The notes under the pieces were generated by a model, which was given only the letters and a program-made list of their open reading frames with translations, had not been told where the DNA came from and searched no databases. From Candidatus Dadabacteria bacterium (GTDB taxonomy: Bacteria; Desulfobacterota_D; UBA1144; Nemesobacterales; Nemesobacteraceae), in contig OX638332.1 in assembly GCA_951812735.1 (NCBI GenBank), positions 504,732-568,731 on the forward strand: a DNA stretch of 64,000 bases, given 5' to 3'. Of this stretch, positions 2,392-21,842 are shown piece by piece; position 1 is the first letter of the stretch; the number at the start of each line of letters is the position of its first letter. A program made the position numbers and the translations under genes.

Positions 2392-2395
2392 AAAA

Positions 2396-3634
2396 ATGCG
2401 GGTGTTAAGCAGACTGTCTCTCAAAAAAGTGGTTGCCGCTTCAATAGTTGCGATACTGATAAGCGCAGCATCTGGCGAAGCCCAAGAACAAATACACGCT
2501 GTGCCGGGCGTATACAGTAATCGTATTGTATTTGGGCAATCCGCCGCCTTCAGTGGGCCGGCCAGCGAGCTTGGCAAAGGCATGCAGGCTGGCATTCTTT
2601 CCGCGTTTAAAGAGGTTAATGACCGGGGTGGCGTTAACGGACGTCGTCTGGAACTGCGATCAATGGATGACGCATACGAACCAGAAGCGGCAATTACAAA
2701 TACGCAGCGACTGATTGGTGAGGGCGTTTTCGCACTCATCGGCGCAGTTGGTACTCCTACCTCCAAAGCTGCGGTACCTGTTGCGGAGGAACACGGTGTA
2801 CCTTACATAGCGCCTATGACCGGTGCAGAGTTCCTGCGTGGCAATGCACGCCGGACAGTCATTAATCTTCGGGCTTCGTATTATCAAGAAACCGAGGAGA
2901 TGGTAGAACGACTGACAGCTGATCTCGGAATTAATCGCGTCGCCATTCTTTATCAGGATGATTCATTCGGTCGTGCTGGTTTGCAAGGGGTCCTTCTTGC
3001 TCTTGAGCGTCGCAAACTTTCTGCTATCGGAACAGGGATATTTCCTCGCAATACTGTCGCGATAAAGACGGCGCTTCTTGATTTACGTGCCACCGGACCG
3101 GAAGCTGTGATTATTATTGGTCCCTACAAGCCGACTGCGACATTTATTAAATGGGCGCGCCATATCGGTATGAATTCCATTTTTATGACACTTTCTTTCG
3201 TAGGCAGTAATGCCTTGGCAAACGAACTGGGTGATGAAGGGGCCGGAGTCCTAGTTACGCAGGTGGTTCCTTTTCCAACCGGAAACACAATTCCTGCTTC
3301 CGCTTCCTATCGTGCTGCGTTGAAGGCGTACGATCCGGCGGCAAAACCCGGATTTATATCATATGAAGGATATTTAGCAGGGCGTTTGGCTATTTATGTC
3401 GTAGATCATTGTGGCAAGCAGGTTAACCGCGGTTGTATTGATGCGGTACTGCGGACTGGCAACAACATTAATTTGGATGGCTTCACCTTGCGATATAGCA
3501 AAAATGATAATCAAGGTTCAGACAGAGTGTTCTTGACGATTATTGGTCCTGATGGCCAGTATACACCACTTACATCTCTAACCTCCACGACGATACTGAC
3601 CGATGCTTTGCATATGCAAAAGACATTGAATTGA
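2396..3634 (+). CDS. Exported ligand-binding protein, LivK/branched-chain amino acid type
   Basis: Has a signal peptide (residues 1-30, positively charged RLSLKK then a hydrophobic run ending SGEAQ) and a type-I periplasmic binding fold of the Peripla_BP_6 kind: FGQSAAFSGPASELGKG near residue 43, then FKEVNDRGGVNGR, both standard for LivJ/LivK-like proteins. Length 412 is normal. No permease or ATPase of a Liv transporter is nearby. It lies instead between an RsbW-like gene and a membrane histidine kinase, 10 bp before the kinase. The likely job is therefore to present a small ligand (amino acid, amide or similar) to the kinase sensor domain. The ligand cannot be told from sequence. Confidence 0.88.
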   Translation: MRVLSRLSLKKVVAASIVAILISAASGEAQEQIHAVPGVYSNRIVFGQSAAFSGPASELGKGMQAGILSAFKEVNDRGGVNGRRLELRSMDDAYEPEAAITNTQRLIGEGVFALIGAVGTPTSKAAVPVAEEHGVPYIAPMTGAEFLRGNARRTVINLRASYYQETEEMVERLTADLGINRVAILYQDDSFGRAGLQGVLLALERRKLSAIGTGIFPRNTVAIKTALLDLRATGPEAVIIIGPYKPTATFIKWARHIGMNSIFMTLSFVGSNALANELGDEGAGVLVTQVVPFPTGNTIPASASYRAALKAYDPAAKPGFISYEGYLAGRLAIYVVDHCGKQVNRGCIDAVLRTGNNINLDGFTLRYSKNDNQGSDRVFLTIIGPDGQYTPLTSLTSTTILTDALHMQKTLN

Positions 3635-3644
3635 GATAAACGGA

Positions 3645-5921
3645 ATGCTTTCAAAGCTCTGGAATCGAATTTCTACGCAAATTTCTACGCAACTCTATAT
3701 AAGTTTCGGAGGTGCTGTAGTACTCATCATCATTATCAGTTTGATTGCCCTTTTCTTCCTTAGCCACATTGGCAGGGTCCAGCAAGACATTAACCGAAAG
3801 AACATACCCGAGATGACATCGGCGTTTGCAATTGCCCAGCAGACAGCCACGCTCGTCGCCGCTGCTCCCCGACTCACCTCAAGTACACCTGAACAGTTCA
3901 GGACCGTAGCTGGGACGATCGGCCTGCAGGCGGATGCATTTAAAACACAGCTCTCAGTAATGATGGAAAATCAAGGAGAAAGCGAACAAGCGCGGCAGAT
4001 TCAATCTGACGGGATCGCCATAATCAAGAACATTGATCGAATCAAATTGCTTGTCAGGGAACGTTTCGATCTTCGCGAGAGCAGTCTCAATCTTAGAGAC
4101 GAGCTTCAGGGTATCCAAAGTGAAATAACACCGATTATGATTAACGAAATCGACGATCAGATGTTCTATATAATGACCGGTTATCGGTTTCTTGATGGGG
4201 TACAATCACCCGGTTCGGTTCATTTTTCCGAATCGGAATTCCAGATCTATCGTCGCTTGTTTGAACTCCGCGAAGCGGCTGCAGTCGCCGCACAGTTGCT
4301 TGGAACCACATTTGTAGTGACCGATGCGGCTATGCTTCAGCCATTGCGAGAACGATTTCAAGCCACGGCCGGTAGTATCAGCCGATCGCTTGATGCCCTT
4401 GAGAAACACGAACAGGGGGAAGACCATCCTCAGAATAGACCGGATAGCCGATCGCCTGATCCGCTTAAGAACAATTCCCTTCACGATCGACTGTCTTGGA
4501 TTTTCGAAGACCTGGTCTCATTCGGCAGAAGAGAAAACAACGGATTTGACCTGCGCAGTCGGGAGCTTGCGGTTAATGATAAATTGTCCGCCCTGCTTCT
4601 CGAGAATCAGACTTTAGGAATTGACATCGTAGCGCGAGTAGAAAGTGTTGTAAATGATTCAAGCTTGGCTGCAGGGGAGATGACGAGCAAAGCAGCCGCA
4701 GTAACCGCTACCAGTACGAGGCTACTGGTGGCTTTCAACATTGTTAGTATAAGCGGTGCAGTCTTGCTCGGGTGGCTACTTGTACAACGTCGTCTGATTC
4801 GGCGTCTGGAGCGGATATCGAATCAGATGCAAGAAATGGCTGATGGCAACCTAGAAGTAGCCGTCGACACCAAAGGTAATGATGAAATCGCGCAATTAGC
4901 CAATGCGCTTGAGGTGTTTCGAAATAACGCACTGGAAGTACAGCGTCTTAATCTTGTAGAAACGCTTGCTAACCAACTGCAAGAAAAGAATGAGGAACTA
5001 GCACATACTAATGAAGAATTGAAACGGGCGCAGGACCAGATCGTTATGCAAGAGAAACTTGCTGCGCTTGGTGAATTGACAGCGGGGGTCGCGCACGAAA
5101 TCAAAAATCCAATGAACTTTATCATGAACTTCTCAGAGGTTTCACAAGAGCTCCTGGAAGAACTGATTGAGGAGGTAGCCAAAATTGAGGCTAGTGGAGA
5201 CATGGAAGAGGAATACGATTCGGAGTTAGTCGAGGAAGTAGCCGAGGATTTGACAGGGAATTTGAAACGCATTCACGAGCACGGAACTCGTGCGAACCGA
5301 ATTATAACAGACATGCTCAGGATGGGTCGCGGCGGTGGGGAATGGCAACCAACTGACCTCAATGTATTGCTTAACCAGCATGCGTTGCTTGCGTTCCATA
5401 GTGCTCGCGCCACCGACCCTGAATTCCAGCTAGAAATTCAGGAAGACTATGCGCCAGATATAGGCGAGATCACTGTACAACCGGAAGACATCGGTCGGGT
5501 TTTCCTAAATCTGGTAACTAATGCCTGCTATGCTGCGGACGAAAAACGAAAAATGCTGGCTGCTGCGGACAATGAGTCGAAAAAGGATTATCAACCGACG
5601 CTTAAGTTGAGTACGCGGCTTGTTGATGACCGTATTGAGGTACATGTTCGTGACAATGGAACCGGTATTCCCGAATCTGCATTGGAGCGTATCTTCAATC
5701 CGTTCTATACAACGAAACCCACGGATCAAGGGACTGGTCTGGGGTTATCGCTGTCCAATGACATCATACGACAGCATGGTGGTGAGTTTCGCGTAGAAAC
5801 GGAGGAAGGCGAATATACAGATATGATTGTTGTTTTGCCGCTTGACCCTGCAGCTCATCAAGTAATTGATACTTCAGAAGAAGCGGTAGAAGGCGAGGAT
5901 TCAGCAACTGCTTCTTCGTAA
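3645..5921 (+). CDS. Membrane sensor histidine kinase with large extracytoplasmic domain and HAMP
   Basis: 758 residues. A first membrane span lies at about 16-40, a long helical periplasmic sensor at about 41-360, a second span at about 363-385, and a HAMP domain follows (IRRLERISNQMQEMADGN). A coiled coil (about 435-470) leads to a HisKA domain with His484 in AGVAHEIKNP, then an ATPase domain with Asn626 in LVTNACYAA, VRDNGTGIPES, FNPFYTTK and GTGLGLSLS. An acidic insertion (about 500-540) between H-box and N-box is longer than usual. There is no receiver domain of its own, so phosphate most likely goes to the receiver-PP2C protein at 800. It ends 6 bp before the convergent STAS gene. Confidence 0.93.
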   Translation: MLSKLWNRISTQISTQLYISFGGAVVLIIIISLIALFFLSHIGRVQQDINRKNIPEMTSAFAIAQQTATLVAAAPRLTSSTPEQFRTVAGTIGLQADAFKTQLSVMMENQGESEQARQIQSDGIAIIKNIDRIKLLVRERFDLRESSLNLRDELQGIQSEITPIMINEIDDQMFYIMTGYRFLDGVQSPGSVHFSESEFQIYRRLFELREAAAVAAQLLGTTFVVTDAAMLQPLRERFQATAGSISRSLDALEKHEQGEDHPQNRPDSRSPDPLKNNSLHDRLSWIFEDLVSFGRRENNGFDLRSRELAVNDKLSALLLENQTLGIDIVARVESVVNDSSLAAGEMTSKAAAVTATSTRLLVAFNIVSISGAVLLGWLLVQRRLIRRLERISNQMQEMADGNLEVAVDTKGNDEIAQLANALEVFRNNALEVQRLNLVETLANQLQEKNEELAHTNEELKRAQDQIVMQEKLAALGELTAGVAHEIKNPMNFIMNFSEVSQELLEELIEEVAKIEASGDMEEEYDSELVEEVAEDLTGNLKRIHEHGTRANRIITDMLRMGRGGGEWQPTDLNVLLNQHALLAFHSARATDPEFQLEIQEDYAPDIGEITVQPEDIGRVFLNLVTNACYAADEKRKMLAAADNESKKDYQPTLKLSTRLVDDRIEVHVRDNGTGIPESALERIFNPFYTTKPTDQGTGLGLSLSNDIIRQHGGEFRVETEEGEYTDMIVVLPLDPAAHQVIDTSEEAVEGEDSATASS

Positions 5922-5927
5922 CGCGGT

Positions 5928-6287
5928 TTAACCCGTTATTGCGGCTATAGCATCAGAACGAGATTTGAACATATCAATGATTTTGTCAAAAGCTGTGATC
6001 TCGAAGATTTCTTTTACGGGACCATGCAAGCAACACAGCACAAATCTCGTATTTCTACCTTTTAATCTTTTTGCAACAAGCAGAATTGATCGCAATCCCG
6101 CACTATTGATGTAGGTAAGATTTTCAAGATCCAGAACTACGGGGCTGTCAGAGTCGATAATTTCCTTGTACAGCTTGTCGTGGAATTCCCGCGCGTTCAA
6201 ACCATGAACTTGGCCAGTTACGCTTATTACCAAGGCCCCTTCGGCCTGGTTGGCCTGCAACTTAACTTGATTGTTTTGAATGACCAT
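5928..6287 (-). CDS. STAS-domain anti-sigma factor antagonist (copy 1)
   Basis: 119 residues forming one STAS domain. The regulatory Ser is Ser62 in YINSAGLRS, the position phosphorylated in SpoIIAA/RsbV proteins. In this family the unphosphorylated form binds the RsbW-type kinase and frees its partner. It is a close paralogue of the next gene upstream; the two overlap by 26 bp at 6262-6287, and the identity extends through the start MVIQNNQVKLQA. It converges on the histidine kinase gene with a 6-bp gap. It is the likely substrate pool for the phosphatase at 800 and the kinase at 1957. Confidence 0.9.
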   Translation of the reverse strand: MVIQNNQVKLQANQAEGALVISVTGQVHGLNAREFHDKLYKEIIDSDSPVVLDLENLTYINSAGLRSILLVAKRLKGRNTRFVLCCLHGPVKEIFEITAFDKIIDMFKSRSDAIAAITG

Positions 6288-6657
6288 TCTCTAGCGGTTT
6301 AATCGTTATCGCAGCTGTAGCGTCAGAGCGAGATTTGAACACATTAATGATTTTGTCAAAACCTGCAATCTCGAAGATTTCTTTTATGGAATCAGGCAAG
6401 GAACACAGCATGAATTTCGTATTTCTACCTTGTAATGTTTTTGCAATAAGCAAAATTGATCGCAATCCCGCACTGCTGATGTAGGACAGCTTTTCAAGAT
6501 CCAGAACTACGGGGTTGTCAGAGCCGCCAATTTCCTTGTCCAGGTTTTCGTGGAATTCCTGTGCGTTCAAACCATCAATTCGACCAGTTACGCTTATTAC
6601 CAAGGCCCCTTCGATTTGATCAGCCTGCAACTTAACTTGATTGTTTTGAATGACCAT
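6262..6657 (-). CDS. STAS-domain anti-sigma factor antagonist (copy 2)
   Basis: 131 residues, a tandem duplicate of the STAS gene just downstream; the first 119 residues align without gaps and the target Ser62 is kept in YISSAGLRS. It differs by a 12-residue tail ending NGHSKQSS, which comes from reading into the start region of copy 1. Two near-identical antagonists suggest either dosage or two slightly different binding partners (for example the RsbW-like protein encoded at 1957 and another one elsewhere). Transcription would start in the roughly 280-bp gap before the peroxiredoxin gene. Confidence 0.9.
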   Translation of the reverse strand: MVIQNNQVKLQADQIEGALVISVTGRIDGLNAQEFHENLDKEIGGSDNPVVLDLEKLSYISSAGLRSILLIAKTLQGRNTKFMLCSLPDSIKEIFEIAGFDKIINVFKSRSDATAAITIKPLENGHSKQSS

Positions 6658-6941: not shown

Positions 6942-7406
6942 ATGGGAAGAAATCTTGAGATAGGGAATCAGGCTCCTGATTTTGAAGCCGAAACCTACGG
7001 AGCGGAGAAAGTAAGGTTAAGCGACTTTTATTCTAAAGGGACTGTGGTGCTTTACTTTTATCCTAAGGACAACACTACGGGCTGTATTATGGAGGCTTGT
7101 TCGCTTCGCAATGCGGAGGAGGAGCTTGCGTCTCTTGGAGTACAGGTTCTGGGGGTAAGCACAGACGGGGTAAAGTCCCATGAGAAGTTCAGAGACAAGT
7201 TTTCACTCAATTTCCCGTTGCTGAGCGACAAAAGCAGGAAGATAGTGAGTCTGTACGGGGCAAGGTGGAAGTTACTCCCCTTCGTTGCTCGCAGGACCAC
7301 CTTCCTTATAGAGAAAGGTGGTAGGATAGCGTATATTTGGGACAAAGTTAAAGCCTCGTCCCATGCCGAAGAGATACTCAGCAAGGTAAAAGAACTAGGT
7401 CTTTGA
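6942..7406 (+). CDS. bcp: Thioredoxin-dependent peroxiredoxin, BCP/PrxQ type
   Basis: 154 residues with the BCP layout: GNQAPDF near the start, VVLYFYPKDNTTGC, Cys48 as the peroxidatic Cys and Cys53 five residues on as the resolving Cys (CIMEAC), which is the atypical 2-Cys arrangement of PrxQ. The usual TPGC is TTGC here, so a Pro that packs the active site is replaced; this is unusual but the Cys pair is intact. It reduces hydrogen peroxide and lipid hydroperoxides using thioredoxin. It stands alone, with no good Shine-Dalgarno before the ATG. Its place next to lipid-active genes may be chance. Confidence 0.92.
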   Translation: MGRNLEIGNQAPDFEAETYGAEKVRLSDFYSKGTVVLYFYPKDNTTGCIMEACSLRNAEEELASLGVQVLGVSTDGVKSHEKFRDKFSLNFPLLSDKSRKIVSLYGARWKLLPFVARRTTFLIEKGGRIAYIWDKVKASSHAEEILSKVKELGL

Positions 7407-8296: not shown

Positions 8297-8437
8297 ATGA
8301 ATTTAATCAAGATTTTCAAGCAGTTCCCAGACCAGAAAGCCTGCATAGAGCACCTTAAAACCATCCGCTTCGGCGATACGCCATATTGGCCGCATTGTGG
8401 AAGCATTCATAAAGAAGGAGTATTAAATCATGATTGA
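8297..8437 (+). pseudogene. IS1595-type transposase N-terminal remnant
   Basis: A 46-codon frame, MNLIKIFKQFPDQKACIEHL followed by KTIRFGDTPYWPHCGS, matches the N-terminal zinc-ribbon region of IS1595-family transposases (typical pattern F-P-D-x-x-A-C-x-x-x-L, then a C-P-x-C knuckle). The first Cys of the knuckle is Trp here, and the reading frame stops after 46 codons, so the catalytic part is gone. The remnant overlaps the first 8 bases of the sterol-reductase gene, and the AAGGAG inside it is correctly placed to be that gene's ribosome site. Confidence 0.7.
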
Positions 8438-9569
8438 ATTGCTTGGTATCAGCCACTTTTTCGAGCTTTCCCGGACGGAAGCGATTGCAGGGTTTTTCAC
8501 TCCACTGGTGATTTTCGCCGTGTTTTTCCTGGCGCAGCTCATATTGCCTGGAAAGTGGGTTCCGGGCTACGTCATCAATCCGCAGACCGGTGAACCCCGC
8601 AAGTATCGGCTAAACGGCATCCTGGTGTTTGCAGTTGCGGTGATCGTGTGGGCTTTCGAACTCACCGGGATGCCGCGTGACTGGTTCTATCGGTCCTCGA
8701 TCTATGCCGTGGCCGGTGGAACTGTTTTCACCACCATCTTTGCAATCATAGCGGTCTTCAGCCAGCCGCAAGGCAAGATCAAGAACCCGCTTCTGGCTTT
8801 GTGGGACGGGCGGGCGCAGGAGATGTCGTTCTTCAACGACCGTTTCGATGTTAAGATGTATTTCTATGTCGTCGGTGGGACGATGTTGGCGCTCAACGCC
8901 TTGTCCGGGGCCACGTACAACTACGAACTCTTTGGCGAAAACTTCAATCCAGGCGTTTTCCTGTATGCGGCGTTCTTCACATTCTACATACTGGATTACT
9001 TTGTCTTTGAGCGCGTCCAGCTATATACCTACGATCTGATCCATGAACGTCTCGGCTTCAAAATGTTCTGGGGTGGTCTCGTGGTCTACGGGTGGCTGTT
9101 CATCCTACCGTTGTGGGGCATGGCCGCTTACCCGTCTCCCGGATTCTCGTCGGCGTTGACCTATGTCTGGCTCATCGGAACAACTGCGCTATTCCTGTCC
9201 GGGTGGGTCATCTCGCGCGGCGCCAACTTGCAGAAATACTCTTTCAAACGATGGCCCGACCGCAAGTTTCTCGGGCTCATCGAGCCTGAGTACATCGAGG
9301 CCGGCGACCGCAAGATCCTGTGCAGCGGCCTGTGGGGTGTCGCTCGCCACTTCAACTACCTGGGCGAAGGCTTCCTTGGTCTTTCAATTGCCTTGGCATT
9401 CGGCTACTTCACTAATCCTTGGGCGTGGACTTACTTTGTCTTCGTCGTAACGTTTTTTACCTTTCGTCAACATTTTGACGATGCGTACTGTGCCGAGAAA
9501 TACGGCGCCGAAAAGTGGGCGGAGTATCAGGCACGGGTGAAATACCGGATTTTTCCTGGCATTTATTGA
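8430..9569 (+). CDS. ERG4/ERG24-family sterol reductase
   Basis: 379 residues, polytopic (about nine hydrophobic segments). The C-terminal signature of the Delta14/Delta24(28)/Delta7 sterol reductase family is complete: LLCSGLWG-like LCSGLWGVARHFNYLGE, then DDAYCAEKYGAEKWAEY and VKYRIFPGIY. An upstream family block is GRAQEMSFFNDRFDVKMYF. These enzymes reduce a sterol double bond with NADPH in the membrane. Which double bond is acted on cannot be decided by eye; ERG4-type side-chain reduction would follow naturally from the methyltransferase at 13779, while Delta14 or Delta7 reduction is equally possible. The ATG at 8430 is supported by AAGGAG 9 bp upstream. The gene is more GC-rich than the flanking debris and is enclosed by the 77-bp inverted repeats, which suggests transfer. 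Confidence 0.85.
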   Translation: MIELLGISHFFELSRTEAIAGFFTPLVIFAVFFLAQLILPGKWVPGYVINPQTGEPRKYRLNGILVFAVAVIVWAFELTGMPRDWFYRSSIYAVAGGTVFTTIFAIIAVFSQPQGKIKNPLLALWDGRAQEMSFFNDRFDVKMYFYVVGGTMLALNALSGATYNYELFGENFNPGVFLYAAFFTFYILDYFVFERVQLYTYDLIHERLGFKMFWGGLVVYGWLFILPLWGMAAYPSPGFSSALTYVWLIGTTALFLSGWVISRGANLQKYSFKRWPDRKFLGLIEPEYIEAGDRKILCSGLWGVARHFNYLGEGFLGLSIALAFGYFTNPWAWTYFVFVVTFFTFRQHFDDAYCAEKYGAEKWAEYQARVKYRIFPGIY

Positions 9570-9927
9570 AATCAGAAGAACGATCACGATACACAACCGC
9601 CACGATGTCGCCGTGTTGCACCGAGGGCAGCGAAGCACCTTGCTCTTGGCTAACACGCACATACGCCAGGCAGTCGGCCCTGGGACACCTCGATTAATCG
9701 GCTTTCCCAAGGTTGCGTCCCCTGAAATATCCCGGTATTGTCTTTTTCGTCGCGACATGAAAATCCTACTTGATTGTCGTAACCGTTTCATCTTGTTTGT
9801 TGCGCTATAGTTATCCTGTGTTTCAGTAAATATAGCACTGTAAAGGTGGATAGGGCTGGATGTGGCAAAGTGAAGAGAAAATGCCAGATCTGAAACTTAC
9901 ACATATTGCATAATTCGGCATGATCGT
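9570..9927. other. Intergenic region holding repeat copy B
   Basis: Besides the repeat at 9704-9781 nothing gene-like is supported. A minus-strand frame (9384-9758) begins in the repeat and runs antisense into the reductase gene; only its first 17 codons are shared with repeat copy A. Confidence 0.5.
9704..9781 (-). repeat. 77-bp repeat, copy B (inverted partner of 6690-6766)
   Basis: Reverse-complement match to 6690-6766; the longest uninterrupted shared block covers the core ATACCGGGATATTTCAGGGG and continues through ACGCAACCT. Read on the minus strand it encodes MSRRKRQYRDISGDATLG from 9758. The conservation is about equal inside and outside those codons, so whether it is kept for protein or DNA reasons is open. 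Confidence 0.75.
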
Positions 9928-12258
9928 ATGAACCTGGAATCCTTCTTTGCGATGATCATGGCCCGCCGCTGGCTGACCATTCTGCTCTCTTTGCTTGTTA
10001 TGCTGGTCCTTGCTGCGGGAGCCACGCGCTTGATTGTGGTGGATGTAGACTTTCGCAATCACTTTGGTGAATCCGACCCACACCTTATCGCGCTGGAACA
10101 GCTTGAAGAGACATATGCGCTGTCCGATGTTGCATTGGTTGCCGTGGCGCCACATAACGGCACCATTTTCACCCGGGAAACGCTTGTTGCCATTGAAGAG
10201 CTGACTGAGCAGCTTTGGCGCACCCCTTACGCCACCCGTGTCGACTCTATTTCAAACTATACGCATAGCGAGGGGTTCGAAGATGAACTGGTTGTTGAGC
10301 AGCTTATCGACGAAGCCAGTTCCCTGAGCGACACCGATATAGAACGAATCAGAGATATCGCGTTCGGCACTGAGGAAATTGCCGGGCGATTCTTTTCCCG
10401 TGACGGACGAGTTGCCGGTTTGGTTGTAAGTATTGTGCTTCCTGACGACAATCGGGAATTGACCAAGCGAGAGGTTACCGACTATTTGTATGAAACTATT
10501 GCCGACGCCCGGGATAAACATACATCCATCGACTACCACCTTTTAGGTGGACTTATCCTCAATCGTGTCATAGGTGACGCGCTTGACGATGAAACGGCCA
10601 TCCTTGGGCCCATTGCCCTTGGAACCATGCTGCTTGTCGCCTTGGTTCTGATACGTTCGATATGGGGGACACTTGCGATCGTGCTGATGATTGTTACCGT
10701 CATCCCATCTGCGCTGGGCTTTGCCGGGTGGACTGGCTTAAAGCTGTTTGGTGAAAGCGGTGCCGCACTGTTTGTACTGATGGCTGTGACCGTCGCTCAT
10801 TCCGTGCACATTATTGAGGCAATGGCCGGGGGCTTACGCCAGGACATGACGAGAACAGAGGCGGCAATCCATGCTGTGCAAGTGAACGTGTGGCCTGTTT
10901 TCCTCACCTCGTTCACAACTGCAATCGGATTTTTGAGCCTGAATTTCGTAGATATGCCGCCGTTTAAGGTTATGGGCAACATGGTGGCGTTCGGCTCCAT
11001 GTGCGCTTTCGCCTTTTCGGTGACTCTACTGCCCGCATTCCTGTCGATATTACCTATTCGTGCCCGGAAGGTGCGCGAAAGCAAACGGGATCCTTTCGAT
11101 CGCCTCAGCCGTTTTGTCATCTCCTATCGTACGATCCTTCTGTGCTTCTTTGGCATTCTGACTGTCTTTCTGGCTGCCGGCATCACCAAGATCGAACTTA
11201 AGGAGAACTGGCTTGAGGTTCTTGATGAGAGTTACGAGTTCCGGCGATCCGCGGATTTTCTGAGCGAGAATTTCCCTGGAGTGGAAACCTATGAGTACTC
11301 TCTGGATTCCGGCCGTGAAGGCGCCGTCACACACATAGAATACCTAAAACAGGTCGATGCGTTTGCGGATTGGTACCGGGAGCAACCGGAATTTGTCCAT
11401 ATCTTCTCAATTGCCGACATCATGAAGCGTCTGAACAAGAACCTGCATGGCGACAACCCGGATTACTACGTGCTTCCCGACGATCCTGAACTTGCCGCAC
11501 AGTATCTTTTGCTTTACGAATTTTCTCTTCCGGTAGGCCGCGATCTGAACAATCTGATCGACCATGATCGGAGGGCAACACGCGCAACGGTCTCAGTGAA
11601 AAGTATGACCAGTAAGGAGAAGATCGATCTCGACGACCGTGCACGTGCATGGTTGCGGCAAAATGCCCCCAGCATGGAAACCGGCGCTACAGGAATTTCG
11701 ATTGTGGGGTCTCATTCGATTCAGAGGAACATTGAAAATATGTTGCAGGGCACTTTTGTGGCGATGGCCATCGTCTCCCTGCTGCTGTTCGCCATATTCA
11801 GAAGTATACGCCTGGGACTGGTCAGTCTGATCCCCAACTTCCTTCCGGCCGCTATGGCCATGGGACTCTGGGGGTATTTGGTGGGAGAGGTAGGAGTTCC
11901 AGCGGCGGTAGTCACCGCTATAGCATTCGGCATCATCGTGGATGACACGATCCATTTCATGACAAAATATACGGATAGCAGAAAAGCAGGGAAACTGCCT
12001 TCGGAGTCCGTTCAAATAGCTTTTCGCTCTGTGGGAAGGGCATTATTTACGACTACCGTAGTGTTTGGGCTGGGCTTCATGGTGTTCGGAGCATCCGGGG
12101 TGGTGGGAAACCAAGTGCTTGGTCTTTTGGTAGGAATAACGGTAATTATTGCTCTACTGGCAGATTTTTTCTTCCTTCCACCACTTCTGATGCTGCTTGA
12201 CGAGACCAAGGAAACCAGCGAGCAGATTAGGGAACGATTGAGAGGCTCCACCTCATAG
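9928..12258 (+). CDS. RND-superfamily lipid/hydrophobe exporter (MMPL type)
   Basis: 776 residues in the duplicated RND layout: one span at about 12-34, a periplasmic loop (40-210), a five-span bundle (about 215-385), a second loop (about 420-590) and a second bundle (about 600-765). The proton-relay acidic pair is Asp672-Asp673 in IIVDDTIHFM; the first bundle has the weaker AVTVAHSVHII. It belongs with the MMPL/HpnN-like branch that moves lipids and hopanoids, not with tripartite drug pumps; no membrane-fusion or TolC gene is adjacent. RND members are known to carry sterols in some bacteria. Placed between a sterol reductase and a sterol methyltransferase, sterol transport to the outer membrane is the favoured role, by inference. 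Confidence 0.85.
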   Translation: MNLESFFAMIMARRWLTILLSLLVMLVLAAGATRLIVVDVDFRNHFGESDPHLIALEQLEETYALSDVALVAVAPHNGTIFTRETLVAIEELTEQLWRTPYATRVDSISNYTHSEGFEDELVVEQLIDEASSLSDTDIERIRDIAFGTEEIAGRFFSRDGRVAGLVVSIVLPDDNRELTKREVTDYLYETIADARDKHTSIDYHLLGGLILNRVIGDALDDETAILGPIALGTMLLVALVLIRSIWGTLAIVLMIVTVIPSALGFAGWTGLKLFGESGAALFVLMAVTVAHSVHIIEAMAGGLRQDMTRTEAAIHAVQVNVWPVFLTSFTTAIGFLSLNFVDMPPFKVMGNMVAFGSMCAFAFSVTLLPAFLSILPIRARKVRESKRDPFDRLSRFVISYRTILLCFFGILTVFLAAGITKIELKENWLEVLDESYEFRRSADFLSENFPGVETYEYSLDSGREGAVTHIEYLKQVDAFADWYREQPEFVHIFSIADIMKRLNKNLHGDNPDYYVLPDDPELAAQYLLLYEFSLPVGRDLNNLIDHDRRATRATVSVKSMTSKEKIDLDDRARAWLRQNAPSMETGATGISIVGSHSIQRNIENMLQGTFVAMAIVSLLLFAIFRSIRLGLVSLIPNFLPAAMAMGLWGYLVGEVGVPAAVVTAIAFGIIVDDTIHFMTKYTDSRKAGKLPSESVQIAFRSVGRALFTTTVVFGLGFMVFGASGVVGNQVLGLLVGITVIIALLADFFFLPPLLMLLDETKETSEQIRERLRGSTS

Positions 12259-12299
12259 ATCGCAAAAACCCCACTGTGCGGTATGGAAAAGCTGAATAG

Positions 12300-12317
12300 T
12301 ATGCCGAGATCGGCATA
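12300..12317. other. Small palindrome between convergent genes
   Basis: TATGCCG-AGAT-CGGCATA forms a 7-bp hairpin in the 76-bp gap between the convergent exporter and Rieske genes. There is no T run after it on either strand, so it is at best a weak or Rho-assisted terminator. Confidence 0.3.
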
Positions 12318-12334
12318 AACACCTCTACATACTT

Positions 12335-13378
12335 CTACGGATTATAATACTGACCATCCGGATAGAACTGCCTGCAGTAGCGCCGATACTTCCCGATATC
12401 GCCGTCAACACTGCAAAGCCTCGGAAGTGACCGATGTTTCAGATTGCTCCAGATAACGACATCCTGCATGACGTCATGCTCCTGGGAGGCAATGAGGACC
12501 TTGTTCATGAGGCGGGTCCTGAGTCCCAGGGGAAAGATCCGCAGCCCGTGGCCCGGTCCCTTCAGATTACGAAGTTGCCGGACTTGGCTCACCAATGTCA
12601 TTTCAATAAACTTGCCATCAATCGGTGTTGCAAGCACCCACAGGCGGGTGTCCATGTTGACCGAATGCTCGTGAACCTCGACAATTGAATAGCCAAGCCC
12701 GTGTATACTGGCGACCGCAGAAACGTCGTACTCGAAAAGCTTGATGCCGGCAACTGTGAGGTTGCGTTTGAAGTTGAAGGAGTTCCTGAGCAAGGTGCCG
12801 TCAATTGTTATCGACCCGACAATATTCACACTGTTGTAGTGGTGCACATAGTTAAGGTGCGCAACATCCACGGAGTTCTCGGTAGTTTCCTGGGGATGTC
12901 CCGGGAAACGGATGTGCCGGAATTCCATCCCGCTCCAGTCGGTATCCGTTGTGGGAAGTTCGGGCAGGTGCCATTGAGGTTCTCGACCGCCGCTGCCCCA
13001 CCAACCAAAGATAAGACCCTCTATTTCCCATGTCTCGAATACCTTCAGCTTAGCGGTTTTTGGCGGAGGAGCAAAAGGTGTCGCCACGCATTGACCGCTT
13101 ACATCAAACTCGAAACCGTGAAAAGGACATACAAGGCAACCGTTGCGCACGCGCCCCCCTACCTCAGGACCAAGATCGGCTCCTAGATGCGGACAGACCG
13201 CCTCGGCAACACAAACTTCCCCTTCCCCGTTGCACCAGACAACAATCTGTTCTCCAAGCCAGGTTCTCTTTAGGAGTCCTTTTTTTTTAATCATCTTGCG
13301 GCTGGCAACGAAATACCAGCCTTCCGGAAATGGGTAAAGCAAGGCTTCATCCTTGCGCATATTTGAGTTTGGATTCAT
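12335..13378 (-). CDS. Rieske non-haem iron oxygenase, Neverland/DAF-36 sterol type
   Basis: 347 residues. The Rieske [2Fe-2S] site is Cys62-x-His64 and Cys84-x2-His87 (AVCPHLGADLG and CLVCPFHGFEF). The mononuclear iron site is Asp171, His174, His179 in ENSVDVAHLNYVHH. Overall order and the E-N-x-x-D-x-x-H-x4-H spacing resemble the cholesterol 7-desaturase (Neverland/DAF-36) and KshA-like branch that acts on sterols and steroids. Such enzymes need an electron-donating reductase, which is not next door. Possible reactions are C-7 desaturation, nuclear hydroxylation, or C-4 methyl oxidation as in bacterial sterol demethylases; sequence alone does not choose. Divergent from the sterol methyltransferase, with a strong promoter at 13449-13477. 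Confidence 0.85.
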   Translation of the reverse strand: MNPNSNMRKDEALLYPFPEGWYFVASRKMIKKKGLLKRTWLGEQIVVWCNGEGEVCVAEAVCPHLGADLGPEVGGRVRNGCLVCPFHGFEFDVSGQCVATPFAPPPKTAKLKVFETWEIEGLIFGWWGSGGREPQWHLPELPTTDTDWSGMEFRHIRFPGHPQETTENSVDVAHLNYVHHYNSVNIVGSITIDGTLLRNSFNFKRNLTVAGIKLFEYDVSAVASIHGLGYSIVEVHEHSVNMDTRLWVLATPIDGKFIEMTLVSQVRQLRNLKGPGHGLRIFPLGLRTRLMNKVLIASQEHDVMQDVVIWSNLKHRSLPRLCSVDGDIGKYRRYCRQFYPDGQYYNP

Positions 13379-13778
13379 TTGCTGTTACTCCGCTTATCCA
13401 GTTATCCAGCGTTAAGTACCAGAAATGCATTTGCATTAGCTTCAGGGAATTATATATCTAAATAGAAAAAGTGTAAACCACTGCTCTTTCCCATCGTTTT
13501 GCTTGCCTTTTGTTTCTAGATCAATGCACAGCCAGTCTGTTCTCTTAACGTAAGCCCATAACTTGTCATTACGAAATATTTTGACCGCAGGCAAAATGCC
13601 GTCCCTCCAGCCGGGGTGATTCAGAAATTACTTGTATTTCTCATTAGTATCCTCTAGTATTGGTACTGACTTTTGCAAAATAATTCATTGCAGTAAGCAT
13701 CTTCTCGCAGGTTCGGGACTGTAGAAATGCCGTTACAGGTGGATTCCAGAAGCTCAAACGCAAAAGTCAAACCACTTA
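13379..13778. other. Divergent control region between Rieske and SMT genes
   Basis: A 400-bp gap without a credible gene. It contains the minus-strand promoter described separately. No equally clear plus-strand promoter is seen for the methyltransferase. A frame starting at 13727 runs into the methyltransferase in the wrong phase and is not coding. Confidence 0.5.
13449..13477 (-). promoter_or_regulatory. Sigma70-type promoter for the Rieske gene
   Basis: On the minus strand TTTACA (13472-13477) and TATAAT (13449-13454) are separated by 17 bp. They lie about 70 bp upstream of the Rieske ATG and point toward it. This is the best-formed promoter in the sterol region. Confidence 0.6.
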
Positions 13779-14816
13779 ATGAAACTCCGCAAATTATCAA
13801 ACGGACTGAAGGCAGCGTACAGTGGGTCGAACATCGCCCGCAGGGTGCAAGACTTCAATGGATGGATAGACAGAGCATCCGCGGAGAATGTCGGTGCGGC
13901 AAGCTACGACCACACCCAGACCGTCAAGGAATACTACGACCTTTGCGGCGAGTTCATGGTGTTCGGCTGGGGCGAATCCCTTCACTTCGCGCCGCTGTCG
14001 CCCCGCGAGAGCGTGGAGGACTCCAAGATTCGCCATCAGCGATTGATGATCGACAAACTGGAGCTGCAACAGGGCATGACGGTGGTCGATATCGGTTGCG
14101 GGATCGGCGGCCCGATGCGCCGTGTAGTCCGCGAGACCGGAGTCAGGGTCATCGGGGTCAACATCAACAAAATCCAGTTGGGAAAGGCAAAAAGGTTGAA
14201 CGCCGAAGCGGGGCTCGATCACATGGTCGACTACCTCGAGTGCAGCTTCATGGACATGAGCGCCGTCGCGGACGACACTTTCGACCGGGGCTACGCGTTC
14301 GAATCGACATGCCATGCGCCAAAAAAGGTGGACGCATTTGCCGAGATCTACCGCGTGCTGAAACCCGGAGCCCTCTTCTGGGGTCAGGAAATGTGTGTTA
14401 CGGACAAATTCGATCCCGACGACAATCAGCACCAAGCCATAAAGCAGGAGCTGATGCTCGGCATCGCGCTCAAGGATATCGCAACGATGGGCGAGGTAAA
14501 TGAGGCGCTCGAGACCGTGGGATTCCAAGTTATCGAGGGGGTGGACGAGGCCGTCGAGGAGAACGGTCCTACCACGCCGTGGTATCAACCCATGGTGAGT
14601 CGGCATGGAACGCTGGGCAACCCTCTGTACAGGACTCGACTGGGTCAGAAGATGTTCAACGGGGCATCCAGGCTGGCCGAGATACTGGGGATATTCCCGA
14701 AAGGCTCCACGGAAGTCGCAAGGCTGATGAATCGGACCGCTGACGCCTATGTCGCAGGTGGCAGGACCGGAATCTTCACACCGCTATACTGTTTCCTGGC
14801 GCGCAAACCCCTCTAG
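13779..14816 (+). CDS. Sterol C-24 methyltransferase (ERG6/SMT family)
   Basis: 345 residues with SMT-specific blocks in order: YYDLCGEFMVFGWGESLHFA (the Y-E-Y-G-W-G-x-S-F-H-F sterol-binding motif), a SAM site with Asp104 in VVDIGCGIGGPMRR, GVNINKIQ, YAFESTCHAP, EIYRVLKPG, TDKFDPDD and the C-terminal AYVAGGRTGIFTPLYCFLAR. The last block and the first are not found in general SAM methyltransferases, so the family call is firm. SMTs add a methyl group from SAM to C-24 of a sterol side chain (Delta24 sterols such as cycloartenol, zymosterol or desmosterol). Bacterial members are rare and mostly known from uncultured lineages. The ATG at 13779 lacks a Shine-Dalgarno, and no alternative in-frame start lies just upstream. 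Confidence 0.93.
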   Translation: MKLRKLSNGLKAAYSGSNIARRVQDFNGWIDRASAENVGAASYDHTQTVKEYYDLCGEFMVFGWGESLHFAPLSPRESVEDSKIRHQRLMIDKLELQQGMTVVDIGCGIGGPMRRVVRETGVRVIGVNINKIQLGKAKRLNAEAGLDHMVDYLECSFMDMSAVADDTFDRGYAFESTCHAPKKVDAFAEIYRVLKPGALFWGQEMCVTDKFDPDDNQHQAIKQELMLGIALKDIATMGEVNEALETVGFQVIEGVDEAVEENGPTTPWYQPMVSRHGTLGNPLYRTRLGQKMFNGASRLAEILGIFPKGSTEVARLMNRTADAYVAGGRTGIFTPLYCFLARKPL

Positions 14817-14947
14817 ACCCCCGCATTCCCTAGTGCTCCGGCGACCCCATGGCGCACTTCAGACGGACAGTTCACACCTCTGCTCGGCAATGCGGAATTT
14901 CAGCTTTTCGTCCGGTTTCATCGCAGGTAATGGTATATCTTAGGGAA

Positions 14948-16396
14948 TTAATAAGTTGCGCGTCTTGCAATTTCTTTAAACATCTGCCTGAAAATAATCC
15001 AGTGGGTGGGGTAAAGACCATACCAATAGATCAGGCCACCTAGGCCCAGGGGTCGGAAAACTGCTGTCTGCGTTATTCGACTGCCCTTTTCAGCGGGCTC
15101 GACTTCAAACTGAAGCCACGCCTGACCAGGCAACCTCATCTCTGCTCTCAGGCTCAGCAGCCGATTCTCTTCATAAGCCTCAACACGCCAGAAATCCAGA
15201 GGATCACCCGGGCGCAAGTCGGTCGGATGCCGCCTGCCCCTACGCATGCCTACTCCGCCCAGAAGCAGATCAACCAAGCCGCGCAGATACCAGATCCAAG
15301 TGGCAAAATACCAGCCTTGGTCTCCGCCAATGCACCGTATGGGCGCGAAGGCTCGCGCGGGGTCCACGTTGACGACGGTCCGCTGGCAGTCGATAAGCCT
15401 CGAACCGAAACGCCCTCCTCCCCAAGACGGCCGGTTACCACTTGAAGACACGGCGTCGCTCCAGCGGGTCCGGGCCACTTCCATATCCTCCCGCTTAAGA
15501 GCCTGGGCTACTGCTTGGCGTACTCCCAAGGGATGTACCGGAAAATGTTTCAGGGCCGCTTTATCACGGACAATGGTCTCGTTGCGTAAGCCGTCCACGA
15601 GTTTTCTGCCCACCCTAGCATAAAGAGGAGTCACAAGCCCCAGCCAGAGACTCGAGAGATTGGGACTCAGGACAGGCACCGGAATCATAAGGCGCCGCAC
15701 GCCGATCTGGCGGGCATATTCATTCATCAGTTCGCCGTAGGTAACCTGGTCGGGACCGGCGATTTCGAAAACCGCGCTGTCCTGCAGTTCCAGATCCAGA
15801 CCGCAAATAAGATAGGCTATTACGTCTTCGATGGCGATGGGCTGGGTTAATGTTCTCACCCAGCTCGGGGTAACCATCAGCGGCAGCCTGTCAACCAGGC
15901 TTCGCAGCAACTCAAAAGAAAGCGATCCTGAGCCGATTATGATTGAGGCACGAAATTCCAAGGTAAGGGGACCTTCTGAAGCCAGAATATCCCCTACTTC
16001 CCTGCGGCTTGCCAAGTGAGAGGAAAGTTCACCGTCTCCGAACAATCCTCCCAGATAAATAATTCGACGCACTCCATGTTGGCGTGCAACTCGGGCGAAA
16101 TTGCGGGACCCGATACGGTCCTGTTCCTCGAAATTGTCCCCGGAACCCATGGAATGAACCATGTAATAAGCCGTGTCCACCCCTTCAAGAGCGATCTCGA
16201 GAGAATCAGGGTCAAGCACATCGCCAGCGACAATCCGGGTATCGGGAGAAAAACGACCAGCGAGATATCCGGGTTTGCGGGCAAGACAGCGCACCCGTTC
16301 GCCCTTTTCCTCCAAAGCCGGGACCAGGCGCCCACCGACGTAACCGCTTGCTCCCGTCACCAGTACAATTCGGTCTTTTTTCTTATCCTCAGACAT
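14948..16396 (-). CDS. SDR-family NAD(P)-binding protein with DUF2867 (YbjT-like)
   Basis: 482 residues from the ATG at 16396 (a TTG 15 bp upstream is less likely). The N-terminal half is an atypical extended SDR: LVTGASGYVGGRL nucleotide motif at about 12-24, a NmrA/YbjT-like SMGSGDNF region and IIYLGGLFGD. The C-terminal part (about 330-480) is a DUF2867/START-like domain (GDPLDFWRVEAYEENRLLSL). The family is poorly characterised; members are quinone- or lipid-associated in several genomes. It converges on the sterol methyltransferase with a 130-bp gap. A reductase role in sterol modification is attractive, because bacterial C-4 demethylation pairs a Rieske enzyme with an NAD(P) reductase, but this is inference only. 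Confidence 0.8.
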   Translation of the reverse strand: MSEDKKKDRIVLVTGASGYVGGRLVPALEEKGERVRCLARKPGYLAGRFSPDTRIVAGDVLDPDSLEIALEGVDTAYYMVHSMGSGDNFEEQDRIGSRNFARVARQHGVRRIIYLGGLFGDGELSSHLASRREVGDILASEGPLTLEFRASIIIGSGSLSFELLRSLVDRLPLMVTPSWVRTLTQPIAIEDVIAYLICGLDLELQDSAVFEIAGPDQVTYGELMNEYARQIGVRRLMIPVPVLSPNLSSLWLGLVTPLYARVGRKLVDGLRNETIVRDKAALKHFPVHPLGVRQAVAQALKREDMEVARTRWSDAVSSSGNRPSWGGGRFGSRLIDCQRTVVNVDPARAFAPIRCIGGDQGWYFATWIWYLRGLVDLLLGGVGMRRGRRHPTDLRPGDPLDFWRVEAYEENRLLSLRAEMRLPGQAWLQFEVEPAEKGSRITQTAVFRPLGLGGLIYWYGLYPTHWIIFRQMFKEIARRATY

Positions 16397-16419
16397 TAAG
16401 AACGAACCCAAGGTGTTGT

Positions 16420-16487: not shown

Positions 16488-17156
16488 CTAGGGAAGCAGT
16501 TTCTGAATTCTCTTTATCCTCTCCTCTTCCGTTTCCTCTTCCTTCGGGCTTGGGGGAATCCCGTTTCCTCTTATCACGGCGGGCCTTTCGCCAACTTCGG
16601 CATGCCACCTGGTAAGATTCGGAAAAGCCCCGAGATCTAGTTCCGCCCAGCCGTAAGCGTTTATCCAAGGCCAAGTGGCTATATCGGCAATTGAATACTC
16701 TCTTGCAAGATACTCCATCTCAGAGAGTCTTTCGTCGAGTATCGAGTAGAGCCTTTTAGTCTCCTCGGTGTATCTCTTTATCGCATAGGGTATTTTTTCC
16801 GGGGCGTACTTTAAAAAGACGTTCAGCTGTCCCTGCATGGGCCCTACAGCCGACATCTGGAACATGAGCCACTGGATACACGTTGTTCTGCGTCTGTCCC
16901 CGACCGGCGGAAGAAAGCTCCCGAACTTGTCGGCAAGATATATGAGTATGGCTCCTGACTCAAAAACCGCCGTGCCGTCATCATTATCAACTATTGCGGG
17001 TATTTTCCCGTTCGGATTTATCTCGAGAAACCACGGCTCCTTGTGTTCAAGCTCAGAGAGATTAAGAGCGTGAACCTTGTAGTCAGCTTCCAGTTCCTCA
17101 AGCATCATTGAAACCTTCTTGCCGTTCGGCGTGGCCGCCGTGTAAAGATCGATCAT
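16488..17156 (-). CDS. Glutathione S-transferase-like protein (YfcG/YghU type)
   Basis: 222 residues. The thioredoxin-like N-terminal domain begins IDLYTAATPNGKKVSMMLEE, the nu-class signature of YfcG/YghU disulfide oxidoreductases, and has the cis-Pro region NPNGKIPAI and the glutathione-binding ES pair in AVFESGAILIYLA. The all-helical C-terminal domain follows (about 88-205), with the family N-capping block SIADIATWPW. Nu-class members use glutathione to reduce disulfides or peroxides in the cytoplasm. The last 25 residues are an unusual charged tail (KEEETEEERIKRI). Ends before a clear terminator. Confidence 0.88.
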   Translation of the reverse strand: MIDLYTAATPNGKKVSMMLEELEADYKVHALNLSELEHKEPWFLEINPNGKIPAIVDNDDGTAVFESGAILIYLADKFGSFLPPVGDRRRTTCIQWLMFQMSAVGPMQGQLNVFLKYAPEKIPYAIKRYTEETKRLYSILDERLSEMEYLAREYSIADIATWPWINAYGWAELDLGAFPNLTRWHAEVGERPAVIRGNGIPPSPKEEETEEERIKRIQKLLP

Positions 17157-21017: not shown

Positions 21018-21842
21018 CTACTTGCGTCCTATCGCCTCCCCCCAGGCAAAGCCAGCTAAAGCACCAGGAGTCTCCCTCCACCGATCAAGCAGGACACGCC
21101 AGTCATTGAACTGTTCTTCGATTGCAAGTCCATATTTAGTAGCTGCTTCAACGGTACCCGGGGCAAAGAACCATCCGATTATAAAATCATGAAGAAAGTC
21201 AATGTCCTCATCCGTAACGAAAGGTTCGAAAGAAACTCCCGCACTGATATCAGAAAATCCCGCTTCGAGAAACACGCGTTTAAGTTCCTTGCCCATCTGG
21301 GGGTGTCCGCCGTTTGCGGTGATAAGTTTTGAGAAGGTATCGCAACCGTCGCTGAGTTCGGGTTCGAGAAAAGATGAATCAACAAACATTTCTCGGCTTG
21401 AGATTATACCTCCGGGCTTAAGTACCCTGCGCACTTCGGTCAGCACAGCTTTCGTATCAGGAACGTGCATGAGCAGGGCGTTGCAGTGTGCAACATCAAA
21501 CGAGCTATCTTCGAAGGGGAGATCGGTCACATCAGCGGTTTGAAAGGCCGCGTTTCGGTGCCCACCGGCCAAGGCGGCAGCCCGTGCCATCTCGATCTGG
21601 GATTCCTCCATATCAATGCCGTGCAGCTCTCCCGGTTCCACCGCTTCTGCGAGTCCCATCGAGATTGTTCCGGGGCCGCACCCGAAATCCAGAACGCGCA
21701 TGCCGGGCTTGAGATGAGGAAGCAGGTGTGTGGCGCTGGTCTCCGCATTACGACGTCTGAGCAATTTCTGAAAATCCTCGCTGTACCCCATTGTGTAGGC
21801 AGCTGCGGGACTACCCGGGGTTTTATCTCTGTTCATGGGCAT
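21018..21842 (-). CDS. Class I SAM-dependent methyltransferase (UbiE/Methyltransf_11 type)
   Basis: 274 residues. SAM motifs are VLDFGCGPGTIS (motif I), GIDMEESQIEMA (acidic loop), FQTADVTDLPFEDSSFD (motif II) and LTEVRRVLKPGGII (motif post-II). The N-terminus AAYTMGYSEDFQKLLRRR is shared with a group of uncharacterised UbiE-like methyltransferases. The C-terminal 100 residues, with a Trp/Phe-rich IIGWFFAPGTVEAA, may form a lid over a hydrophobic substrate. It is monocistronic. It is not a menaquinone MenG by motif, and the substrate is unknown. Confidence 0.85.
   Translation of the reverse strand: MPMNRDKTPGSPAAAYTMGYSEDFQKLLRRRNAETSATHLLPHLKPGMRVLDFGCGPGTISMGLAEAVEPGELHGIDMEESQIEMARAAALAGGHRNAAFQTADVTDLPFEDSSFDVAHCNALLMHVPDTKAVLTEVRRVLKPGGIISSREMFVDSSFLEPELSDGCDTFSKLITANGGHPQMGKELKRVFLEAGFSDISAGVSFEPFVTDEDIDFLHDFIIGWFFAPGTVEAATKYGLAIEEQFNDWRVLLDRWRETPGALAGFAWGEAIGRK

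Follow-up and report, generated by a model that had tools for sequence, protein, structure and literature searches.

A conserved cluster of sterol-family genes, probably for sterol remodelling, in a genus of Candidatus Dadabacteria without detected sterol synthesis genes

The stretch of DNA analysed here (hereafter the window; 64,000 nucleotides, bases 504732–568731 of contig OX638332.1, assembly GCA_951812735.1) belongs to a genome of a genus within Candidatus Dadabacteria, assembled as a single 1.59-Mb contig and 91.4% complete, and carries in close proximity genes for a sterol reductase, an RND transporter, a Rieske oxygenase, a sterol methyltransferase (SMT) and an SDR-type protein. This region is the right half of a genus-wide cluster of ~27 kb that extends leftward past the window, to about G000:C1:493990 (G000 is the window's own genome; G, C and L numbers denote genomes, contigs and loci). 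Coordinates are window positions with strands as listed, unless a contig or locus is named, and Pfam domain calls were judged against curated cut-offs, given in bits beside each score.

Genes of the cluster and their conservation in the genus

All five open reading frames that a first-pass annotation had placed in the interval 8297–16411 are present, open and intact. The start of that interval is not part of the reductase and falls in a separate remnant (8297–8437, +; 46 aa over 8297–8434) directly upstream, which resembles the N-terminus of an IS1595-type transposase (PF12760, transposase zinc ribbon, 21.0 bits, E 0.00032, under the cut-off of 25.4). The reductase itself (RED, 8430–9569, +, 379 aa) is an ERG4/ERG24-family sterol C=C reductase, as proposed, by its domain (ERG4_ERG24, PF01222, 113.2 bits, cut-off 27), its match to the Delta14-sterol reductase 4quv in the PDB (E 8.9e-35, query residues 28–379 aligned) and the conserved C-terminal motifs RGANxQK and SGxWGxARHxNYxGE; it shares the family of 4quv and differs in that no certain maker of a Delta14 bond (CYP51) lies beside it. 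The RND assignment at 9928 was likewise confirmed by Pfam: RND1 (9928–12258, +, 776 aa) is an MMPL/HAE3-type transporter (MMPL 122.3 bits, cut-off 20.5) with a part resembling a sterol-sensing domain (23.7 bits, marginal against a cut-off of 22.3). The HAE3 model matches it under its cut-off, and the curated equivalog models for HpnN (TIGR03480, 92.7 bits, cut-off 751.85) and BstA (NF045600, 32.7 bits, cut-off 1400) match far under theirs.

The gene at 12335–13378 (−) encodes a KshA-type Rieske non-haem iron oxygenase (347 aa; Rieske 64.7 bits, cut-off 20.3; KshA_C 92.9 bits, cut-off 23.3), and its nearest solved structure in the PDB is the 3-ketosteroid 9alpha-hydroxylase KshA (83 bits, E 1.5e-22). 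The two share the Rieske and KshA_C domains and the iron-ligand motifs, and the alignment covers parts of the window protein (residues 17–180 and 304–342); the motifs CxH, CxxH and DxxHxxxxH occur in all readable strings (18, 17 and 15 of 18 aligned relatives). The gene had been described as Neverland/DAF-36-like, a label that can be followed only as far as a Rieske oxygenase with KshA_C, the best solved match being KshA; Neverland and DAF-36 are likewise Rieske oxygenases. The methyltransferase (SMT-A, 13779–14816, +, 345 aa) carries Sterol_MT_C (PF08498, 63.8 bits, cut-off 21.7), which we took as the mark separating SMTs from generic methyltransferases, after its S-adenosylmethionine (SAM)-methyltransferase domains, in agreement with its annotation as a complete ERG6/SMT-type enzyme; its 39 PDB matches are other methyltransferases, bar one chain titled 24-sterol C-methyltransferase (28.5 bits). 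The last of the five (14948–16411, −, 487 aa from a TTG start) is an SDR-type protein with NAD(P)-binding domains fused to DUF2867 (110.4 bits, cut-off 27), its named domains recovered by Pfam, and is regarded as accessory.

A Sterol_MT_C search of the window's genome gave three places, namely the window SMT, an intact second SMT and a C-terminal fragment. The second enzyme (SMT-B, 333 aa, with 40% identity to the window SMT; PF08498 56.5 bits, cut-off 21.7) lies ~4.3 kb before the window's left end, in the left flank (L005 = G000:C1:484732–504731), where the order is RND2, a LolA-like protein, a 448-aa protein, SMT-B, a GPP34-P450 fusion and a flavin adenine dinucleotide (FAD)-dependent amine-oxidase-like protein. 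RND2 combines MMPL with a clear Sterol-sensing match (41.5 bits, cut-off 22.3), and the 448-aa protein, without a Pfam match, is presumed to be an outer-membrane protein. The fusion (675 aa) scores 85.5 bits for GPP34 and 128.7 bits for cytochrome P450, the P450 part matching CYP51 (75 bits), a putative P450 (74) and CYP3A5 (68) in the PDB at nearly the same level, and the best solved relative of the FAD oxidase is LkcE (79 bits). Structure models had mean pLDDT values of 32.9 for the FAD oxidase (from 10 aligned rows) and 30.2 for the presumed outer-membrane protein (from 8) and were not used. The SMT fragment (L005:12685–13098) is an inverted, truncated copy of the end of SMT-B with part of its downstream sequence, the two inverted repeats measuring 163 nt (86%) and 61 nt (89%).

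Conservation was followed in 13 genomes of the genus (89–97% complete, not closed). Sterol_MT_C was found at E ≤ 1e-4 in 13 of 147 genomes, the window's own included, which are 12 of the 13 genus members and one distant genome. RED was present in 11/13 genus genomes and 0/47 other relatives, and the GPP34-P450 at E ≤ 1e-40 in 9/13 and 0/47; G005 has, in addition, the first 64 aa of this gene where a contig ends. The gene order in the genus is acyl-CoA dehydrogenase, RND2, LolA, outer-membrane protein, SMT-B, reductase, GPP34-P450 and FAD oxidase, followed by a sensory block, RND1, Rieske, SMT-A, (SDR), a glutathione S-transferase (GST)-like gene and HtpG. It is largely kept as far as contigs reach, the exceptions being a second SMT-A slot, a second SMT-B copy in some genomes and a partial SMT-A-like copy beside SMT-B in G012. 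This recurrence of the same genes in the same neighbourhood is more than chance, and it answers the gene-order comparison proposed by the first-pass annotation, which would have abandoned its grouping had the genes never co-occurred in related genomes. Nine relatives have the reductase between SMT-B and the P450, and G012 has it near SMT-B at a contig end; only in the window genome does it stand left of RND1, directly after the IS1595-like remnant, a position presumably reached by rearrangement and perhaps through movement by an insertion element. The five genes that had been proposed as one pathway unit are hence not a natural unit, as the reductase was placed among them by this presumed rearrangement, the SDR is dispensable, and the second SMT, the GPP34-P450, the FAD oxidase and the transport genes belong to the set.

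Several further copies were seen in the genus. A second, divergent ERG4/ERG24-family reductase (30–31% identity) occurs at G003:C10:117628–118650 and G005:C6:980–1999. The partial SMT-A-like copy of G012 (L132:2783–3751, G012:C86; 65% over 190 residues) lies between the reductase and SMT-B and exists besides the full SMT-A of the same genome. At a second place in G007 (L122:8140–10537, G007:C13), an SMT-B relative is preceded by a different Rieske oxygenase, and the same arrangement was seen at L062, L066, L074 and L081, three of which are titled Alphaproteobacteria or Rhodospirillales; this Rieske is 24–28% identical to that of the window. A third SMT type (SMT-C) was found at L115 (G010:C27) and L119 (G011:C25) as well as at L036, a Nitrospinota metagenome-assembled genome (MAG) whose other genes include SMT-A, an RND1-like gene and a Rieske gene.

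The models for cyclases (PF13243), squalene epoxidase (PF08491) and squalene/phytoene synthase (PF00494) each gave a match in 0/13 genus genomes, with 2/14, 2/14 and 7/14 control genomes over the respective cut-offs. The organism would therefore hardly be able to make squalene, hopanoids or sterols, de novo sterol synthesis in the genus is very unlikely, and a sterol brought in from outside is the simplest substrate. The search of the rest of the genome for squalene epoxidase and cyclase, advised by the first-pass annotation, which had noted their absence from the window, came back empty for the whole genus next to SMTs in 12/13 genomes, and these counts lend good support to the accompanying suggestion that a symbiont carries out later tailoring steps on imported sterols.

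SMT-A and its cassette outside the genus

A collection of species genomes was scanned with ten aligned SMTs, giving 583 stretches in 264 relatives, of which the best 80 (79 loci) were kept, so the following counts describe a top slice and not a census. Twenty-eight of the 79 loci (L083–L089 and L091–L111; 27–34% identity, mostly partial, generic methyltransferases) were excluded from trees and counts, and L069, from the window's own genus, was excluded from comparisons outside the genus. Loci whose SMT reached 50% identity or more to that of the window were counted as SMT-A loci (28, against 22 other SMT loci), and partners were accepted at identities of at least 35% (GPP34-P450), 40% (Rieske, RND1) or 60% (FAD oxidase, reductase). 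The GPP34-P450 was found at 17/28 SMT-A loci vs. 1/22 other SMT loci (Fisher p 2.8e-5), the Rieske gene at 16/28 vs. 0/22 (p 7.2e-6) and the FAD oxidase at 9/28 vs. 0/22, and 20 of the 28 SMT-A loci had at least one of these three. In 24 aligned P450s, 192–204 of 206 GPP34 columns are filled, and the haem-Cys and ExxR motifs are kept in every readable string (18/24 and 20/24 readable). One contig of 3.88 Mb (L043) carries SMT-A, P450, FAD oxidase and Rieske genes, and its genome has two cyclases of the squalene-hopene cyclase (SHC) type and no oxidosqualene cyclase (OSC).

In a tree of 71 SMTs, SMT-A formed one group of 35 rows (SH-aLRT 100) that mixes, by record titles, eight phyla, namely Pseudomonadota, Chloroflexota, Acidobacteriota, Actinomycetota, Gemmatimonadota, Bacteroidota, Nitrospinota and the Dadabacteria genus. 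The SMT-A sequences of the genus fall in three places, i.e., the window with G002, G003, G006 and G008; G010 and G012 with a Bacteroidota MAG, for which a mis-binned contig is possible; and G004 among Gammaproteobacteria. Holding the seven genus rows together (without G004) was rejected by the approximately unbiased (AU) test in a careful tree of 33 rows (p 2.9e-41), and so was the grouping with G004 added (p 1.4e-61), both for a grouping chosen after the first tree was seen. The slot differs too, lying beside the Rieske gene in the window genome, G002, G003, G006 and G008, and beside the sensor kinase in G007, G010, G011, G012 and G004. G004 apart, identity to the window genome is ~80–96% for the other cluster genes (first SMT-B copy) and 68–86% for SMT-A; the SMT-A of G004 is 61% identical to the window's.

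The active-site regions also set SMT-A apart. Region I of the window SMT-A is clade-specific (FMVFGWGESLHFAP): the Tyr-Glu pair before GWG occurs in none of the readable SMT-A strings (20/35), which mostly have MV, against YE in 12/12 SMTs from genomes of the synthesis type (of these genomes 10 have an OSC, one lacks it and one was outside the cyclase search) and 7 YE and 9 CE in SMT-B (16/18 strings readable). Region IV mostly reads Y(E/D)WCLT(D/E) in the 12 synthesis-type SMTs, YDxCxTP in SMT-B and xEMCxTx in SMT-A (33/35 readable). The SAM motif is kept, as is region III, (I/F)ESTCHA, in the readable SMT-A strings (33/35). The YE motif is known from yeast Erg6, in which these regions line the sterol pocket, and the pattern suggests that SMT-A may be a live enzyme with an altered substrate or product; C-24 as the position methylated by the window SMT is an assumption.

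Cyclases were searched in the genomes of 47 of the 51 retained loci (all but L052, L072, L073 and L079), 28 of which gave a match at E ≤ 1e-6. Among 20 cyclases read, ten of 157–198 bits all have DCTAE, the family motif of OSC, and the other ten (375–485 bits) lack it, seven having DDTA, the family motif of SHC, and three, assigned by score and identity, having neither. Unread cyclases were assigned by score band (157–204 bits OSC, 375–485 bits SHC). By this measure, OSC was found in 2/26 SMT-A genomes (L037 and L055) vs. 15/20 other SMT genomes outside the genus (Fisher p 4.7e-6), 7 of those 15 being confirmed by motif and the call for L059 resting on two fragments (108 and 81 bits), in genomes whose completeness is not stated, such that a missing cyclase may be a gap, the comparison group being nearly all MAGs too. 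Counting the divergent L059 as SMT-A gives 3/27 vs. 14/19 (p 2.5e-5). Eight of the 26 SMT-A genomes have only an SHC-type cyclase, and 16 have none or weak matches only. In L090 (RFIY01000335.1, titled Dadabacteria J088; same domain only in the kinship table, G105) both an SMT and an OSC are present, the latter with the motif variant ADCTAE.

Proposed sterol remodelling and alternative readings

The cluster is real and conserved, it is probably functional, and from its gene content the bacterium is very probably unable to make sterols. We consider it likely, with a probability of about 0.7, that the cluster takes up and remodels sterols which the bacterium cannot make. Directly observed are the gene families, conserved motifs, synteny, the absence of synthesis genes and the spread of SMT-A over mixed phyla, and from these we infer the joint action of the genes, their substrates and products, the regiospecificity, the direction of transport and the sponge as immediate source. 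Sterols from a sponge, or from sterol-making neighbour symbionts, would first reach the cell, where the GPP34-P450, Rieske and FAD oxidases would oxidise or desaturate the nucleus and/or the side chain. SMTs need a double bond in the side chain and cholesterol has none, therefore a Delta24 sterol would have to be supplied or made by one of the oxidases, which might, as a guess, create that bond. SMT-A and SMT-B would then put one or more methyl groups on the side chain, and the reductase would remove a double bond, perhaps that which methylation leaves behind, either finishing the side chain (ERG4-like) or acting on the nucleus. Finally, the RND transporters, the LolA-like protein and the presumed outer-membrane proteins could move sterol across the envelope, in either direction.

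A number of observations weigh against this interpretation. The sponge origin of the window's own genome is deduced from its genus. Since regions I and IV differ, activity of SMT-A on ordinary Delta24 sterols is not assured. Parts of the cluster are dispensable, because SMT-A is split by a stop in G007 and by a frameshift in G011, RND2 was not found between LolA and the acyl-CoA dehydrogenase in G008, and the SDR, whose slot is readable in nine genomes, is intact in four (G000, G002, G006 and G012) and broken or missing in five (G003, G007, G008, G010 and G011), and therefore not core. In G009 (89% complete, ~250 contigs) no SMT, reductase or P450 match was found, and in G004 (92% complete, ~110 contigs) no reductase or P450 match. 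A sensory block splits the cluster into two halves. Outside the genus, 8/28 SMT-A loci have no cassette partner (four at ~12 kb or less, four with full 10-kb flanks); the reductase lies near SMT-A in 1/28 (L033, two copies; 1/22 other SMT loci, L080) and RND1 in 1/28 (L036), hence both are, among these loci, mainly a Dadabacteria feature.

Among the alternatives, an action on a non-sterol polycyclic or isoprenoid lipid, with SMT-A as a divergent branch for another substrate, is unlikely. The own active-site motifs of SMT-A, the SHC-type cyclase without OSC in 8/26 SMT-A genomes and a P450 that is not clearly CYP51 would fit it; against this, the Dadabacteria genus has neither a cyclase nor a squalene/phytoene synthase, and the cluster holds two intact SMTs and unites three separate sterol/steroid-type families (SMT, ERG4/ERG24 reductase, KshA-type Rieske). 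Sterol-family domains are well over the cut-off in SMT-A, SMT-B, the reductase and the Rieske protein, and the placement of SMT and reductase in non-sterol clades, named at the outset as a reason to give up the sterol assignment, did not, judged by these domains, materialise.

Sterol breakdown, in which the Rieske protein would be a 9alpha-hydroxylase, the P450 would attack the side chain and the thiolase and acyl-CoA dehydrogenase would serve beta-oxidation, agrees with KshA as nearest PDB structure and with the acyl-CoA dehydrogenase and thiolase genes adjoining RND2 in the genus. It is improbable given that the methyltransferases and the reductase are anabolic and the most constant members; TIGR03213, a ring-cleavage dioxygenase model that we take as an HsaC-like marker, also found a match at E ≤ 1e-5 in 0/13 genus genomes, a weak test with 0/14 controls over the cut-off and this model as sole catabolic marker. 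De novo synthesis with early genes missed, through genomes that are 89–97% complete and not closed or through unrecognised enzymes, is highly improbable, as three separate enzymes are each absent from 13/13 genomes and the same cyclase search gives a clear OSC in 17/46 other SMT genomes.

Published work provides the closest comparison for the remodelling of imported sterols. Brown et al. 2023 (PMC10070321) showed bacterial SMTs from sponge symbionts to be active in vitro: desmosterol was methylated by 8/10 symbiont SMTs assayed, and two SMTs yielded C30 isopropyl sterols. In that work, 13/24 SMTs sat with an OSC, the clusters being read as de novo synthesis, modification of host sterols was raised for a Chlamydiae MAG with an SMT and no other sterol genes, and a C-26 methylating SMT was called undiscovered. 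These SMTs are alike in being bacterial, sponge-associated enzymes of the same family with Sterol_MT_C, whereas their clusters, often with OSC, differ from the present cassette without a cyclase. Kelly et al. 2022 (PMC9531527) describe de novo sterol clusters (clusters of steroid genes, CSGs, composed of ERG24-CYP51-LSS and often including SMT1) in Ircinia symbionts, with lanosterol synthase in the steroid clusters of 115/537 MAGs and evidence of lateral transfer across ten phyla. Lateral spread among sponge symbionts, an ERG24-type reductase and an SMT are common to both, whereas CSGs carry lanosterol synthase and CYP51 and the present cassette has no cyclase; the CSG pair of oxidosqualene cyclase and squalene epoxidase was absent here (0/13 genus genomes each). 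RED is 29–35% identical to the reductases of CSG-like loci and the P450 20–25% to their P450s. In their main texts, neither PMC10070321 nor PMC9531527 mentions Dadabacteria, and no description of this cassette was seen in searches of open full-text literature judged mostly from their listings (subscription papers and preprints being outside the scope). The cyclase-free cassette, the Dadabacteria case and the swapping of SMT-A therefore appear new; the initial view of an undescribed system may hold for the cyclase-free cassette and does not for functional SMTs or sterol clusters of sponge symbionts, which are published. As to habitat, PMC8163846 lists 22 Dadabacteria MAGs (including SBR1093) from sponges, with Rhopaloeides, Coscinoderma, Ircinia and Aplysina among the hosts, and PMC12648040 reports Petrosia ficiformis, which contains petrosterol, as a source of Dadabacteria MAGs; no finding connects the window with that sponge.

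Thus a bacterium with a small genome, from a lineage known from marine sponges, combines methylating, oxidising, reducing and transport genes without synthesis genes, and probably remodels sterols of its host or neighbours. Added to the published picture are a lineage with SMTs and tailoring genes that seems unable to begin sterol synthesis, and a compact cassette common to many symbiont phyla, mostly without an oxidosqualene cyclase. If the proposal works, host and microbes may make exotic sponge sterols together, and genome searches that look for a cyclase would therefore overlook some of the producers. Steranes with an alkylated side chain are interpreted as the fossil traces of early sponges and algae, and the Dadabacteria lineage could be an unrecognised source of those unusual sterols that serve as early-sponge fossil markers. 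Tentatively, and with rather more doubt than confidence, SMT-A could be a new SMT subclass acting at an unusual position (e.g., C-26) or on an unusual substrate, within a laterally mobile, cyclase-free cassette with which many symbiont phyla that lack access to sterol synthesis would rework sponge sterols, its slot being swapped laterally within Dadabacteria while the rest stays stationary, as if product specificity were exchanged. If so, a C-26 SMT-A would fill the enzyme gap behind 26-methyl and related sponge sterols, and be a candidate for the undiscovered SMT named in PMC10070321.

Sensory block and neighbouring genes

Between the two halves of the cluster lies a sensory/partner-switch block (800–6657), which comprises a SpoIIE response regulator (800–1957; Pfam over 800–1954), a HATPase (1933–2391; Pfam over 1933–2388), an ANF-like, periplasmic binding protein (2396–3634; Pfam over 2396–3631), a sensor kinase named from its sequence (3645–5921) and two STAS-like genes (5928–6657, −), one with Pfam support (5931–6287) and the second named as the kinase was. 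The regulator, the binding protein and the kinase keep their place in the genus, and the block might sense a lipid or another host signal.

A peroxiredoxin (AhpC/TSA, 6942–7406, +; Pfam 123.7 bits), whose association with the cluster is uncertain, adjoins RND1 only in G006 among the relatives' neighbourhoods compared. To the right, a GST-like protein (16488–17156, −, 222 aa) with GST domains in Pfam scores 192.7 bits for the NCBIfam GSH-dependent disulfide bond oxidoreductase, under the cut-off of 332, and is a syntenic neighbour in the same place across the genus. A further methyltransferase downstream of HtpG (21018–21842) has no Sterol_MT_C among its Pfam matches, is 32–36% identical to SMT-B over ~104–145 residues and occupies the same place in relatives. 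At the left end, a PIN-domain protein (L005:8624–9022) adjoins RND2 in the window genome.

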